Source of the DNA: Pseudorhizobium banfieldiae
GTDB taxonomy: Bacteria; Pseudomonadota; Alphaproteobacteria; Rhizobiales; Rhizobiaceae
Direction of reading: 5' to 3'
NCBI RefSeq assembly: GCF_000967425.1
Contig: NZ_FO082822.1
Span: 1-15,430 of the forward strand
DNA: 15,430 nucleotides
In this document: piece by piece, positions 4,481 through 15,081 of the stretch
How positions within the stretch are numbered: the stretch's first letter is position 1
Layout of the letters: every line of letters starts with the position of its first letter
Notes under the pieces: generated by a model
The model's input: the letters and a program-made list of their open reading frames with translations, nothing else
Database searches by the model: none
What the model was told of the DNA's origin: nothing
Position numbers and translations under genes: made by a program

Positions 4481-4714
4481 TCATTGTCGGATTGTCCAAG
4501 TGCCCAACCCCGATTCGGAAAAGGGCGTCCCCTTTTCCCGTAGAAGATCACGGCGCGCGATGTTCATGCGACCAATGAGATCCACGAGCAGCGCCCGTGT
4601 GGGCGGGCAGTTGAGATATTCGATGATTTGAGGCTCGATGTCAGCGTTGCGGATCAGGCCCAGCGTGTTGCGCGAGGTCCCGCATTCCGGGTTGTGGTAG
4701 ATGATAATGCCCAT
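4481..4714 (-). pseudogene. arsC: Truncated glutaredoxin-type arsenate reductase ArsC
   Basis: The 77-residue frame begins MGIIIYHNPECGTSRNTLGL, the hallmark start of R773-type ArsC, with catalytic Cys11 in HNPECGTSRNT and the conserved Arg of DLLREKGTPF. Full-length proteins are about 140 residues and need two further arginines in the second half. Here similarity stops after SESGL and seven unrelated residues (GTWTIRQ) precede a stop, so the C-terminal half is missing and activity is unlikely. A GAGG ribosome site precedes the ATG, whose A lies 7 bases past the stop of the preceding arsC remnant. It is the last recognisable gene of the ars operon. The break looks like a deletion joining it to an unrelated sequence. 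Confidence 0.8.
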
Positions 4715-4721
4715 GCCACCC

Positions 4722-4917
4722 TCACGCCGCGCTGTTCCGGGGTTTGCTCGCCCCTTTGGCTTGTCCGATTTCGCTCAGCCGCACCTTGAGGGACGATCTA
4801 TCGAGAGAAGCGACAGGCAGGGCAGTGAATGCCGAAATCCGGTTCATGAGGTAGCGCAGGGCAGTCACGAAGGCTGCCCGTGCAGAGAAACAGGACGTTA
4901 TAAACCGGTTCAGACAT
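4722..4917 (-). pseudogene. arsC: Low-molecular-weight-phosphatase-type ArsC with internal deletion
   Basis: The ATG at 4917 overlaps the end of arsR and starts MSEPVYNVLFLCTG, the N-terminus of thioredoxin-dependent LMW-phosphatase-type arsenate reductases, whose P-loop reads CTGNSARS. The sequence is broken directly after CTG-G. In another frame it resumes as YLMNRISAFTALPVASLDR and SSLKVRLSEIG, which matches the typical C-terminus of the same family. Roughly 80 central codons, including the rest of the P-loop, are gone, with a frame change at about 4875. This is an internal deletion inside one gene rather than two partial genes. The product cannot be active. An arsR-arsC(LMW)-arsC(Grx) order is plausible for the ancestral operon. 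Confidence 0.7.
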
Positions 4918-5266
4918 GAGCATCACTCTCGACGGAGGCGCAGCACGACAGGGCCGCGAAGGCTGGCTGGCACACTTCGGGATGATCTTGGCAGCAATCC
5001 CGCATCAGAAATTCGACTAGGCCGGAGAGCGCCGGATAGATGGCGCTGTAGATGATCGAGCGTCCCTCGCGGCGAGACTCTACTAGGCCGGCGTTTTCGA
5101 GGTGGCTAAGATGAAACGACAGTCGGGAGGATGATGCCCCCATTGCTTCACCGATCGCACCGGCAGGGAGCCCTTCCGGTCCAGCCGTCACCAACAGCCG
5201 AACGATCCTCAGCCGCGTTTCCTGGGAAAGTGCGGCAAATGCGCCAATGGCTTGTTTTCCATCCAT
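4910..5266 (-). CDS. arsR: ArsR-family arsenic-responsive repressor
   Basis: This 118-residue winged-helix protein represses its own ars operon and leaves DNA on binding As(III) or Sb(III) (family knowledge). The start ALSQETRLRIVRLLV and the recognition region SSRLSFHLSHLENAGLV with wing EGRSIIYS are classic ArsR. The thiol site is C-terminal: RDCCQDHPEVC, plus a later SCC pair. This resembles the Acidithiobacillus-type ArsR, whose cysteines lie near the C-terminus, rather than the R773 type with CVC in the recognition helix. I favour the ATG at 5266 (MDGKQAIG); an ATG at 5278 in the same frame adds MRCC. A dyad at 5283-5295 is a candidate operator. The arsenate reductases it would control are broken. 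Confidence 0.9.
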   Translation of the reverse strand: MDGKQAIGAFAALSQETRLRIVRLLVTAGPEGLPAGAIGEAMGASSSRLSFHLSHLENAGLVESRREGRSIIYSAIYPALSGLVEFLMRDCCQDHPEVCQPAFAALSCCASVESDAHV

Positions 5267-5343: not shown

Positions 5344-6630
5344 TTAGGGTTCTGGTGGCGTAAGCACCGATTCCGGCTCTGGCCGCGCCTGGACCGTGGG
5401 TGCCGCCAACAGTCGCTCGTAAGCTAACCAAGCGAGGTATCCGCTTAAGGCCAGGCACGTCAGCCCAATCGCCATCTTCATACCGGAAGCGCCGAGAAGC
5501 GGGGCAAGAACGGCCGATGTAAAGGTCATGACCATCGTTTGAAGAAAGCCTTGCGTCGAGGCCGCCGTCCCGCGCAGCCTTGGGAACAGGTCCAGCGTCA
5601 GCAGCGTGATGCTCGGCATCGCGAGCGACATGCCGGTGGTGTAGAGCGCGACCGGCAGCACCGCCCAGGGTACTTCGGGTGGCAAGAAGCGGTTGTAGGC
5701 GAGGTTCAGCACGACGGCGGCGAACATGACGCCGTAGCCCCATCGTACCGTGGTGGGGCGCTGCAGCCGCTTTGCGACCCTGCTCGACAGGTACGAGCCG
5801 AAGATCACGCCTGACATCGCTGGGATGAATAGCCAGCCGAACTGGTTCTGTTCGAGCCCGAGATGCTCGATGATGAACCAAGGTGCGGAGGACACGTAGA
5901 GGAAGAAGCCGGCGAAGTTGCCGCTGAGCGCGAGCGACAGCAGCCAGAACGGCTTCGAGCCGAGCACCGTCCGATAAGTGCGGGCGAGTTCTGCTGGCTC
6001 CACCGAAGTCCGCTGCTCAGGAGGCAGCGTCTCGGGTAGGTAAAACCAGGTGGCGACGAGCTGCAGGAGCGCGAAGAGAGCGAGGAAGCCGAACACCGAT
6101 GGCCACGGGAACCACTCCGCCAGCCAGCCGCCGAACACGGGGGCAATCGCAGGCGCGAGGCCAAAAATCATCGTGACCTGCGACAGAAGCCTTTGCGCCT
6201 CTGCGCCTTCCAGCCGGTCGCGTATCACCGCACGTCCAACGATGCTTCCCGCTCCCACCGACAAACCTTGGAGCGTGCGAGCCAGCATTAAGAGCACGAG
6301 CGATGTCGTGAGCGCTCCACCGATCGAGGCAGCTGCATACACTGACAATCCGGTGAGCACGACGGCGCGGCGGCCAAAGGCGTCTGCCAGTGGTCCGTGC
6401 AGCAGCATCATAAAACCGAATGCGAAAGTGTAGACACTCAGCGTCTGTTGGATCTCGGCCTGCGTTGCCCCCATGGCGGCCATCAGCGCCGGGAAGAAGG
6501 GCATGTAGGTCGAGATGGAGAACGGACCTAACATCGTGTAGCTGCCGAGGAGTAGGGTGAGGCGTCGAGTGCCGGGCTGGCGCCTGACGGCCCCGCTTTC
6601 TTCATCTCTCGCGGGAGGCGGCGTGGTCAT
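5344..6630 (-). CDS. MFS transporter, Bcr/CflA-like multidrug efflux family
   Basis: This 428-residue inner-membrane protein has about 12 hydrophobic segments. The region STYMPFFPALMAAMGAT in the first segment, motif A GPLADAFGRRAVVLTG in the first cytoplasmic loop, and LQGLSVGAGSIVGRAVIRD in segments 4-5 are typical of the Bcr/CflA subfamily, which exports drugs by proton antiport. The second half (NFAGFFLYVSSAPWFIIEHLGL) fits the same family. The ATG at 6630 follows a GAGAGAG ribosome site; an upstream in-frame ATG at 6681 lacks one. The gene lies 93 bases after the small unknown gene and in line with the mer-type promoter at 7114-7145, so mercury-responsive expression is possible. Its substrate cannot be read from the sequence. 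Confidence 0.88.
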   Translation of the reverse strand: MTTPPPARDEESGAVRRQPGTRRLTLLLGSYTMLGPFSISTYMPFFPALMAAMGATQAEIQQTLSVYTFAFGFMMLLHGPLADAFGRRAVVLTGLSVYAAASIGGALTTSLVLLMLARTLQGLSVGAGSIVGRAVIRDRLEGAEAQRLLSQVTMIFGLAPAIAPVFGGWLAEWFPWPSVFGFLALFALLQLVATWFYLPETLPPEQRTSVEPAELARTYRTVLGSKPFWLLSLALSGNFAGFFLYVSSAPWFIIEHLGLEQNQFGWLFIPAMSGVIFGSYLSSRVAKRLQRPTTVRWGYGVMFAAVVLNLAYNRFLPPEVPWAVLPVALYTTGMSLAMPSITLLTLDLFPRLRGTAASTQGFLQTMVMTFTSAVLAPLLGASGMKMAIGLTCLALSGYLAWLAYERLLAAPTVQARPEPESVLTPPEP

Positions 6631-6723
6631 CAATGCTCTCTCTAAGTGTTGCAGAAGCGCTATGACCTGCGCAGTGAACAACAGGTCCGAACATTCTTGG
6701 AAGATGATCGCAGGGCCGTGTTG

Positions 6724-6954
6724 TTATCTGAGGCGCCGTGACACTACGCCGCCGTTGATGGTCCTGTCCGCAATAGCTCTATAGGCGTTCGCAACCGACG
6801 AGCCGGGCGCGAGATTAGGCTGGAGCGTTTCGAGCGCCCGCAGAAGGTGCTCCGCTACGTCCGACTGCTCGTCTGACAGCGCCCGCCTAAATGCTTTCAG
6901 GATTAGCTCCTCGAGAGGAGATATCTGGTCCTCAGGAACGGCGGAATGGGTCAT
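6724..6954 (-). CDS. Small unknown protein (76 residues) first behind the mer promoter
   Basis: The product is a 76-residue acidic, helical protein (MTHSAVPEDQ, then ISPLEELILKAFRRALSDEQ and SDVAEHLLRALETLQP). A good ribosome site (GAGGACCACATG) supports it as real. It has no membrane segment, signal peptide or cysteine, so it is not MerT, MerP or MerF. It resembles small conserved hypotheticals that I have seen in alphaproteobacteria, without a known function. It is the first substantial gene downstream of the mer operator-promoter and precedes the MFS gene on the same strand by 93 bases, so the two may form one transcript. The function is unknown. Confidence 0.65.
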   Translation of the reverse strand: MTHSAVPEDQISPLEELILKAFRRALSDEQSDVAEHLLRALETLQPNLAPGSSVANAYRAIADRTINGGVVSRRLR

Positions 6955-7277
6955 GTGGTCCTCATGCTAGAGCTCCATCACACACGGCGGTCATGCTCAT
7001 CGTCTTTATGTCCAAGTTGAAAGCGTGTGCGGTTGACCAGAGCGTGTGACACTGGTTGATCTCGACGCATCCTCGTAGCTTCTCTCCCGAAGCGATGAGG
7101 CGTCTTCCGAGTCATTATACGCTCCGTACTGCGGTACGGAGTCAATCCTTTTTCACCCAGTGCTGCCGGGCCGGGCCGCGAACCGCAGCCATTAGCAACA
7201 GGACAAGTCGGAAGCCTTAGTGAGACCTGCGGCCAGCGTGTTTGCGGAGCGGCACAAAGATCAGGGGCGCGGCCAGG
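6955..7277. other. Intergenic region between merR and the 76-residue gene
   Basis: This 323-base stretch contains the mer-type promoter (7114-7145) and a leader of about 150 bases. In the leader an ATG at 7070 opens a 30-codon frame ending at 6978 (MRRDQPVSHA…HDRRV). It has no clear family and its ribosome site is poorly placed, so I do not call it as a gene. No remnant of merT, merP or merA was recognised. Bases 7146-7277, between the merR stop and the promoter, show nothing I can name. Confidence 0.5.
7114..7145 (-). promoter_or_regulatory. mer operator-promoter (MerR-type, 20-bp spacer)
   Basis: Read on the minus strand: -35 TTGACT (7145-7140), a 20-base spacer, then a perfect -10 TATAAT (7119-7114). 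The spacer and the edge of the -35 carry a perfect dyad, CTCCGTAC (7122-7129) and GTACGGAG (7134-7141). The Tn21/Tn501 mer promoter has the same TTGACTCCGTAC…GTACGGA layout with an overlong 19-bp spacer, which MerR untwists when it binds Hg(II). The promoter points away from merR, toward the 76-residue gene and the MFS transporter. No mer structural gene follows. Confidence 0.9.
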
Positions 7278-7730
7278 CTATTCCTTCGCACGATGTGGGC
7301 TTCTGGAGCGCTCCGACTGCCCGTTCTGAATGGCGTGGAGTGCTTCGAGAATGGTGCAAGTGCCGATGTCCCCTTGGCCAGGGCACGCATCGATGATGGC
7401 ATGTAGCGCTGCACGAATTTGCTTTAACTCCTTGGTTTTCTGCTCGACCTCCTTGACCTTCACCATCGCGGCGGCGCGCACGTTGCCGCAATCGGACGAA
7501 GGGTCCGTACGCAACGAAAGCAGCTCCTCTACCTCGCGAAGCGAGAACCCAAGCTCTTGCGCTCGCTTAATGAACCGAATTCGTTGCACCGTGTCGGCCG
7601 GGTAGAGGCGAAACCCGGTGCTGCCCGGTTTGCGCGGCTGCTCGATCAGACCACGGCGTTCGTAGAACCGGATGGTCTCGACACCGACACCGGCCTTCTT
7701 GGCGGCTTTTCCGATGGTCAGGTCTCGCAT
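7278..7730 (-). CDS. merR: MerR, mercury-type transcriptional regulator
   Basis: This 150-residue regulator has the N-terminal winged helix-turn-helix (MRDLTIGKAAKKAGVGVETI, RFYERRGLI, GFRLYPADTVQRIRFIKRAQ) and a dimerisation helix. Three cysteines, Cys81 (SDCGNVR), Cys116 (DACPGQG) and Cys125 (GTCTILEAL), match Cys82, Cys117 and Cys126 of Tn501 MerR in identity and exact spacing. These bind Hg(II) across the dimer, so mercury sensing is the best prediction. The ATG at 7730 has AGGAG six bases upstream; an ATG at 7736 lies too close to it. The gene is upstream of, and in the same direction as, the promoter it should control, rather than divergent as in Tn21. No merT, merP or merA is present on this plasmid. 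Confidence 0.92.
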   Translation of the reverse strand: MRDLTIGKAAKKAGVGVETIRFYERRGLIEQPRKPGSTGFRLYPADTVQRIRFIKRAQELGFSLREVEELLSLRTDPSSDCGNVRAAAMVKVKEVEQKTKELKQIRAALHAIIDACPGQGDIGTCTILEALHAIQNGQSERSRSPHRAKE

Positions 7731-7898: not shown

Positions 7899-7972
7899 CC
7901 CTGAATTCAGGGCTTTCCCTGTCGCATGTCTTTGTCGCAAGTGGTAATTTACCTGCGACATGATTTGCGACA
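7899..7972. promoter_or_regulatory. Cluster of four TGTCGCA half-sites (candidate res site or operator)
   Basis: TGTCGCA occurs at 7920-7926 and 7933-7939, and its reverse complement at 7954-7960 and 7966-7972, giving two nested inverted pairs. The inner pair spans exactly 28 bp, the usual length of res subsite I for Tn3-type resolvases, whose half-sites begin TGTC. A perfect 14-bp palindrome CCCTGAATTCAGGG (7899-7912) sits beside it. The cluster lies directly upstream of the arginase-resolvase operon, where a resolvase would both recombine and autoregulate. The nested order is not a standard three-subsite res, so an operator for another regulator is possible. Confidence 0.5.
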
Positions 7973-7986
7973 GGCGGGGCAGGAAT

Positions 7987-13577: not shown

Positions 13578-15081
13578 TCACGCCGGATCGAACAGCCCTT
13601 TGAATTCCGGATCGGCATAGTAGACGAGCTTGTTGGCCATGATTGGCCGCTTGCCGGCGATGAACAGCAGTTCTCCGTTCTGGGGGAAGTTGCGCACTTC
13701 GTCAGGAGTCATCAGCGGCCGCGCGCTGTGCTGTTCGCCATAGGAGACGCCGGATTTTTCGGAATCGAGGGCGCGGCCCATGGTTTGGAACACGGCAGTT
13801 GTCTGGCCGAGCATGTCGGAGACGAATTTGGCGGTGTCATTATCGTTGACGCCGGAGACCTGAAGGACGCCGGCGTTGGAGAGGAAGGTGCCGGCCTTCG
13901 CGCCATAGGTGGCGCGGAGCTGATGGAGGTCCTGCAGGATGGGCCAGAGCTGGACGCCATAGCCGGCCATCAACCCCATGGCACGCTCGACGGCGGCCAG
14001 ATGGCCGAGGGCGGCGAACTCATCGAGCAGATAGAGCACTGGCGTTTCGGCTTTGCGGACTCGCGGGCCATGTCGAGCAGGCTTTGCGTGACGAACAGGC
14101 GCAGCCAGCGCGAATAGGTGGAAAGCCGATCAGGCGGCAGGACGAGGAATACCGTTGCCGTGCTTTTCTTGAGGTCGGCAAAGCGGAAGTCGGAGCGGTC
14201 CAGCACTTTGGCCATGCGCGGGCTGTCGAGGAAATGGGTATGGCGCTGCGCGGCCGAGAGGACGCCGGAGGCTTCCTTGTCGGATTTGCCTAGGTGCCGG
14301 TTGGCGGCACGGGCGACCAGGCCGCCAGCTTCCGTTGACGACTGCATGTCGGCCAGAAGCGCGGCGGAGGCGTCGGGCGCGAGGGCGAGATAGTCGCGCA
14401 GGGTGGCGAGGGTACGCCGATCGCGCGGCTCCTGCGTGGCGATATGAAGGATCATGCCGCCGATCAGGGCCTTGGCTTCCTCGTTCCAATGCGCCTCGCC
14501 CGCCGCGCCGGGTTCGTCATAAACGAGAGCGTCGGCCAGCGTGGCGGCGTCCTCGGCGACGTCGAGGCTTTGGGGATCGAGAGCGTCGAGCGGACTATAG
14601 GAAGCGGACGGCTGGCCGGTCACGCCGAAGGGGTCGAGAACATGGATCGGTCCGAAGCCTTGGCGAGCGCGCCCGGCAACCTTGGCGTTCGCGCTTTTGG
14701 GACGATGCAGATCACCGAGCGATCGGCGGTCAAGAGATTGGGAAGGATTGAGCCGACGCACTTGCCCGATCGTGTCGGGGCCATGGTGAGCAGATGGGCC
14801 GGGCCGTCATAGCGCAGAATCTTTTTCGTCTCGGGGTGGCGTCCAATCATCAGGCCGGGATTCTCCCCGGTCAGCTCGCGCAGCTCCTTGAAGGTGGTGA
14901 AGCGGGCCGAGCCATGGGTTTCGCCATCGAGATCCCCGAAATGGGTGATCAGCGGAAAGGTGGCGAGACGAAAGGTGAGGATGGCGAGAACAGCGATCAG
15001 CAGGGCGGCATGAAGGAAGCTGACAACCATATTGTGGCGCAGGCCCAAGGCTTCGAGCAGGGCACCGCCGCCGAGGCCCAT
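13578..15081 (-). pseudogene. traG: TraG/VirD4-type coupling protein with two frameshifts
   Basis: Three successive frames read as one coupling protein, the inner-membrane ATPase that hands the relaxosome to a type IV channel. Frame one (from 15081) has a membrane segment (FLHAALLIAVLAILTF), HGSARFTTFKELREL and a Walker A-like APTRSGKCVGSILPNLL. Frame two takes over near 14720 (NAKVAGRARQGFGPIHVLDP) and runs through FLVLPPDRLSTYSRWLRLFV. Frame three takes over near 14060 with Walker B VLYLLDEFAALG and continues to FKGLFDPA. Restoring one base at each break gives 501 codons exactly. The first break fits a lost A in ATC-GAT-CCC. The residue after the Walker A lysine is Cys, where I would expect Gly. 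Either the gene is dead or the sequence has indel errors. Confidence 0.85.

Follow-up and report, generated by a model that had tools for sequence, protein, structure and literature searches.

The question raised by this locus is what a MerR sensor and a mer-type promoter control when the genes that follow them do not belong to a mer operon. The window, that is the whole stretch of DNA analysed, is the entire 15,430-bp circular plasmid 5 of strain NT-25 (LR723681.1; the two sequences agree in full once the window is rotated and reverse-complemented), an arsenite-oxidising member of the Rhizobiaceae from a gold mine. A preliminary description of this DNA had noticed the sensor and the promoter facing non-mer genes; we confirmed this observation, and the interpretation given there was partly supported. 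With moderate confidence, we suggest that the locus is not a damaged mer operon but an auxiliary metal-response unit, whose exporter is under the control of a second MerR circuit that has an operator of its own. The features discussed below are the following:

7278-7730, minus strand: merR, coding for a 150-aa MerR-family activator, with AAGGAG upstream of the ATG
7114-7145, minus strand: mer-type promoter, with -35 TTGACT at 7140-7145, dyad CCGTAC-n4-GTACGG at 7124-7139, -10 TATAAT at 7114-7119 and a 20-bp spacer
6724-6954, minus strand: P76, coding for a 76-aa protein without cysteine, predicted with low confidence to be helical, a member of an uncommon family that occurs in metal and mer loci
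5344-6630, minus strand: MFS exporter of the Bcr/CflA family (DHA1), 428 aa, one cysteine
4910-5266, minus strand: arsR, coding for an ArsR/SmtB repressor with a CCx6C motif near the C-terminus
4798-4917, minus strand: arsC of the low-molecular-weight-phosphatase type, broken and identified by visual inspection; the start alone is readable in frame
4481-4714, minus strand: truncated glutaredoxin-type arsC, 77 aa (the model NF007456 is 141 long)

The Promoter and Its Long Spacer

The promoter, TTGACTCCGTACCGCAGTACGGAGCGTATAAT (7145-7114, minus strand), has 0 mismatches to TTGACT-CCGTAC-n4-GTACGG-n4-TATAAT, and when the window was shuffled 200 times with its dinucleotides preserved, no shuffle matched it, even with 3 mismatches allowed; the canonical -35, dyad and -10 with a 20-bp spacer reported in the preliminary description are, thus, exact. 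As also claimed there, the promoter faces the 76-residue gene and the Bcr/CflA-like exporter, which both lie downstream on the same strand; a detail missing from that account is that merR is located upstream of its promoter and is co-directional, not divergent. According to the part of PMC9909328 available to us, MerR-family promoters have spacers of 19-20 bp, and a mer operator within such a spacer, as expected for an Hg(II)-responsive MerR, is found here.

The spacer was compared over 33 boxes from 26 of the named loci, with dyad mismatches ≤1 and -35 matches ≥5/6. At 20 bp, the -10 has A at position 2 in 33/33 boxes, the first T in 25 and the last T in 26, and the mean match is 3.5/6, versus 1.1/6 at 19 bp; therefore, the long spacer is what the group usually has, and the plasmid is no exception in this respect. 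One box, in L105, fits 19 bp better, and the full 6/6 TATAAT occurs in the plasmid box alone. Loci with a qualifying box that were left out of this count are L055, L088, L089, L090, L113 (nearly a duplicate of L114) and shorter versions of included loci; L008 (3 mismatches), L083 (2) and L112 (none up to 3) have no qualifying box.

A leader RNA or riboswitch was also considered and rejected: the predicted folding of the 168 nt that follow the promoter is no better than that of shuffled sequences (z -0.29), and the two Rfam matches are both below the gathering scores.

The MerR Sensor

The only cysteines of the plasmid MerR are C81, C116 and C125, with spacings of 35 and 9, equal to those of Cys82/117/126 in Tn501 MerR (PMC9909328, in the part available to us), so that the claim that all three Hg-binding cysteines are kept with the Tn501 spacing holds. 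The three residues are conserved in 16/16 aligned proteins, namely the plasmid MerR and 15 relatives chosen from among the 120 matches listed. The best NCBIfam model is TIGR02051 MerR, at 134.6 bits, below its curated cut-off of 150.85, with the Zn and Cu sensor models trailing by 16-26 bits. This cut-off is strict here, since the two MerRs adjoining the merA loci of the same host, which score 137.1 and 125.8 bits, also miss it. By sequence, the nearest solved structures are 4ua1 ('Regulatory protein'), which we take to be Bacillus megaterium MerR, and then 5crl ('Mercuric resistance operon regulatory protein').

In the MerR tree, the plasmid protein falls in a group of 17 loci and six database proteins with a support of 94/89, which is under the starred level. 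A smaller clade, with support 96/90, unites it with the Methylobacterium loci L005 and L007 and five database proteins; L005 and L007, both on plasmids, are the sole other members of this clade with known surroundings, and both are non-mer. Cys81 is absent in 4/17 loci of the wide group (L009, L098, L100 and L102), and the MerR of L009 lacks it although it adjoins merTPA. The CCGTAC box is also used by five Grx-linked MerRs with Arg at position 81. Since MerRs that have no Cys81 share this box, finding it is not in itself proof of mercury sensing.

Some MerR proteins of these loci are longer, about 224-230 aa (L005, 3986-4669; L107, 5056-5730; by length also L008, L009, L099 and L104), and those of L005 and L107 have a heavy-metal-associated (HMA/MerP-like) domain fused behind the MerR domain.

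Mercury and Arsenic Genes in the Host

The rest of the host genome (4.58 Mb in all) consists of two contigs of 4,239,731 and 322,264 bases. Searches with the MerA and MerT models found, on the 322-kb contig, two merA genes above the model cut-off and three merT genes, with two MerRs adjoining the merA loci. The sensor is, thus, not an 'orphan', as it had been called. The reported absence of merA and merT is correct for plasmid 5, which has no match to the MerA or MerT models, fragments included, and hence no merA and Hg transporter under the promoter by these models, and is not correct for the genome.

Between the MerRs of the 322-kb contig and merT, exact dyads were found next to TTGA, TCTGTA-n5-TACAGA and CCTGTAG-n3-CTACAGG, which we infer to be the operators of the host merT loci; they are of the CTGTA type, not CCGTAC. 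The third merT of this contig has no exact dyad of comparable size nearby. The exact bare CCGTAC dyad occurs in two places in the 4.58-Mb genome, at the plasmid promoter and at position 663086 of the large contig, between the gene of an Arg81 MerR and a glutaredoxin-MauE gene, and the plasmid MerR could cross-bind there. As read in the stretch around the latter dyad (L043, 2691-3938), the box is perfect and precedes a glutaredoxin-MauE fusion gene, and the MerR is without Cys81.

Downstream of the exporter, a gap of 77 nt (61% A+T) separates the MFS gene from arsR, which is probably a separate unit from P76-MFS; we read it as the leftover of an ars operon that abuts the MerR-P76-MFS unit and is not part of it. 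Neither arsC gene behind arsR (4481-4917) is intact; what this arsenite oxidiser carries on its plasmid is an ars operon in decay. Elsewhere in the window, TraG is three consecutive ORFs in the public record (13578-15081), so that the coupling protein may be broken, and a palindrome, CCCTGAATTCAGGG, with several TGTCGCA/TGCGACA repeats (7899-7980) lies upstream of an arginase-recombinase pair.

Recurrence of the Box and of the Sensor

The -35 and dyad with ≤1 mismatch were found in 16/385 genomes of the class, NT-25's included, and a reversed control pattern in 1 genome. The loci read came from this class scan, plasmids, one genome contig and viral contigs; a few of them (L009, L113, L114 and L112) are not alphaproteobacterial, and the CCGTAC boxes recur mostly in Alphaproteobacteria. 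Mer structural genes, counted (the plasmid included) as blastp matches to MerA/MerT/MerP/MerF seeds at E≤1e-6, are present in the fetched stretch of 5/17 group loci (L009, L010, L099, L104 and L107) and absent from the other 12, some of whose stretches are short or end at a contig end; a weak MerF-like match in L097, HMA-domain matches in L005 and an HMA-like protein recognised by eye in L102 were not counted. Furthermore, MerA was found above cut-off elsewhere in 4/10 of the box-carrying genomes examined, some of them drafts, the ten being those left from the 16 after exclusion of the genomes with MerA beside the box, of NT-25 itself and of the short G760; thus, a genome with the box need not have a mer operon.

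What follows the boxes is often a transporter gene. The genes merR, ccdA and a P-type ATPase lie near boxes in L006, L099, L104 and L107 (with the ATPase further downstream in L107), the same genes occur in L008 with only a 3-mismatch site, and merR and a P-type ATPase lie near the box of L005. An MFS is the first gene after the box in L102, the second in L007 and L111, and the third in L010; it is preceded by LPG_synthase_TM in L111, and in L010 the same pair comes after one unknown gene. The MFS of L102, L111 and L010 are mutually alike (50-72%) and that of L007 is of a second kind; the best match of these four to the plasmid MFS has an E of 0.01, and their families differ from it. L102 contains three boxes, at 1913, 3881 and 4795, before the MFS, a DUF7482 protein and merR. 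The plasmid unit fits these auxiliary MerR/CCGTAC exporter units, having a MerR of the same group, the box and a transporter.

Through a shared mer box, the MerR might instead respond to thiol stress or to a soft metal other than mercury (Cd, Cu, Ag, Au, As(III)), as could be suggested by a best score that is under the Hg cut-off and 16-26 bits ahead of the Zn and Cu models, by the Cys81-less MerRs that use the box beside glutaredoxin-MauE genes, by the adjoining arsR, and by the P-type ATPases of L005 and L104 (the two scanned), which pass the heavy-metal model as well as the copper model. We consider this unlikely, in view of Cys81/116/125 at the exact Tn501 spacing, of the mercuric regulator 5crl as second-nearest structure by sequence, and of the mer genes beside 5/17 group members.

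L104 and L107 each combine, within a single stretch, two operator types and two MerRs. At merT, with the site TCTGTAG-n3-CTACAGA, there is a divergent MerR that has a YEKIG or YEKTG segment, and at the CCGTAC boxes with ccdA a second MerR with FYERRGL; this helix segment of MerR has a role in DNA recognition. The NT-25 genome has the same pair of MerR/operator types, on two contigs.

The preliminary description had proposed a search for the same merR-promoter-76 aa-MFS order in other genomes. Outside the plasmid, no contig could be read with the full order; pairwise linkage of MerR with P76 and of MerR with MFS does appear, as judged from equal longest-contig sizes. A MerR relative (P0130) and a P76 relative (P0005) have the same longest contig of 88,608; two pairs of MerR and MFS relatives share 97,958 (P0132 and P0011) and 11,878 (P0180 and P0084). 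From a jitter null, about 0.03 shared contigs were expected for MerR/P76 and about 0.05 for MerR/MFS. A third MerR/MFS coincidence, at 2,065, was set aside as short; over all sizes, 3 were seen versus 0.58 expected. The relatives of P76 and of the MFS had no shared longest-contig value.

We can now examine the proposal that merTPA was deleted under the promoter and that P76 and the MFS then came under the leftover switch. Deletions have occurred on the plasmid, as the truncated ars genes indicate, and a merR-box-merTPCA arrangement in the same orientation exists in L113 and L114. Nevertheless, the sensor and the promoter are intact, the plasmid has no MerA or MerT fragment by models, L005 and L007, the other placed loci of the 96/90 subclade, are non-mer, and contigs seem to be shared between close relatives of the MerR and relatives of P76 and of the MFS, so that this deletion is disfavoured and seems to us quite improbable.

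P76 and the MFS Exporter

The exporter passes the Bcr/CflA model TIGR00710 with 253 bits (cut-off 200.9). Its single cysteine makes transport of bare Hg(II) in the manner of MerT improbable, and P76, having no cysteine, would not itself be a thiol carrier. The predicted fold of P76 consists of three helices with a mean pLDDT of 68.6, too weak for a fold search.

Relatives of P76 were found as 6 database proteins (its own included), in 8 genome loci, on 1 viral contig and on 1 further plasmid; in the order, they occur in 3/397 genomes, NT-25 included. Twelve loci besides the plasmid were counted, without a background rate for mer adjacency and with L020 and L021 entered as their larger versions L044 and L045. 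A P76 relative lies ≤1 kb from merT in 2/12, L014 (with merP and merA) and L044 (with merP); a P-type ATPase is in the stretch in 6/12 (L012, L016, L017, L018, L044 and L045) and a MerR relative in 4/12 (L014, L016, L044 and L045), at least one of the three features being present in 7/12. The P76 relatives of L014, L044 and L045 run convergently to merR and, therefore, are not under that mer promoter, which argues against a direct role in the mer operon.

As for the exporter, MFS like P0003 at E≤1e-90 were found in 0/384 other genomes of the class and 0/296 of the order (partly overlapping draws); four genomes of the phylum have an MFS 45-47% identical, with no MerR match in their 4.2-kb loci, and the viral-contig scan gave no MFS relative.

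In a genome that already has merA and merT loci, and next to broken arsC copies, one could imagine that unrelated metal genes came together by chance on a shuffled plasmid, without coordinated function. The perfect -10 and dyad, the intact ORFs with Shine-Dalgarno-like sites, and the independent presence of P76 relatives in P-ATPase or MerR loci (7/12) make it very improbable.

Comparison with Known Systems

In the mer switch of Tn501/Tn21, a CCGTAC-n4-GTACGG dyad lies between TTGACT and the -10, in an overlong 19-bp spacer. The plasmid shares with it the three-cysteine MerR, the dyad, TTGACT and an overlong spacer, and differs in that the spacer is 20-bp, merR is upstream in the same direction and no merTPA is downstream. 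The merR-promoter-merTPCA loci of Shewanella ANA-3 (L114) and of Citrobacter plasmids (L113) also have merR upstream and co-directional, with a perfect box; however, these are real mer operons with the merR-box-operon order, driving merTPCA, and their MerR is 49% identical to that of the plasmid. The Methylobacterium fujisawaense plasmid locus L007 has a MerR of the same subclade (59% identical), a perfect box, an MFS target and no mer genes annotated in its 6.2-kb stretch, but its box precedes merR, which is therefore inside the operon, the MFS is not close and P76 is lacking. The five merR-ccdA-P-type ATPase units (L006, L008, L099, L104 and L107) have the MerR lineage and an auxiliary exporter in common with the plasmid, with CCGTAC boxes at 0-1 mismatch in 4/5 (L008 having the 3-mismatch site); they differ in the P-type ATPase and CcdA in place of the MFS, and in the MerR, often of 224-230 aa.

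Activation of an MFS pump by a MerR-family protein occurs in BmrR-bmr. A further case of an MFS exporter activated in this way is SoxR-mfsA (PMC4411124, in the part available to us). These are redox or drug sensors, unlike a three-cysteine metal sensor with a mer box. Among the titles and abstract openings of the open-licence literature, we found no description of a mer-box MFS unit, in agreement with the earlier suggestion of a metal-inducible efflux unit undescribed in this form; a term search of the main texts of PMC8261052, PMC3466566 and PMC11227200 gave 0 occurrences of 'MFS' or 'facilitator'.

Discussion

In the auxiliary metal-response unit that we favour, MerR would bind the CCGTAC-n4-GTACGG dyad, and the 20-bp spacer would keep the promoter silent. 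A thiophilic ion, most likely Hg(II), would be bound between two subunits, by C81 of one and by C116 and C125 of the other; the metal-loaded MerR would then untwist the spacer, and RNA polymerase would start from the consensus -10, by analogy with the known MerR mechanism (PMC9909328, in the part available to us). P76 and the MFS exporter would be co-transcribed, and the MFS would relieve metal stress. Hg(II) is probably the inducer, which is our best guess and not a result. The sensor belongs to the mostly alphaproteobacterial MerR lineage with CCGTAC boxes at transporter genes, separate from the MerRs at the host merTPA with CTGTA-type operators.

In favour of this reading, we counted the exact promoter, the kept cysteines, the -10 pattern at 20 bp, the mer genes in 5/17 loci, the MFS after boxes, P76 beside merT, the contig linkage, the gene order of L113/L114 and the two operator types of L104/L107. 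Against it we counted the MerR score under the Hg cut-off, the Cys81-less MerRs on the same box, P76 convergent to merR, the complete order and close MFS kin not found elsewhere, and the different families of the MFS at other boxes.

A broader hypothesis, which we put forward tentatively and with some doubt, is that Alphaproteobacteria have two mercury circuits: merTPA would be under a YEKIG-type MerR that acts on CTGTA/TACAG, and auxiliary exporters (CcdA/P-type ATPase or MFS) under a FYERRGL-type MerR that acts on CCGTAC/GTACGG. On the NT-25 plasmid there would then be the second circuit alone, P76 would be a new mer-associated protein and the MFS pump an effector of mercury tolerance. If this were true, the mercury response in these bacteria would consist of uptake and reduction by MerA plus a separately switched export arm, which would escape gene finders in which 'MerR plus mer box' counts as a mer operon.
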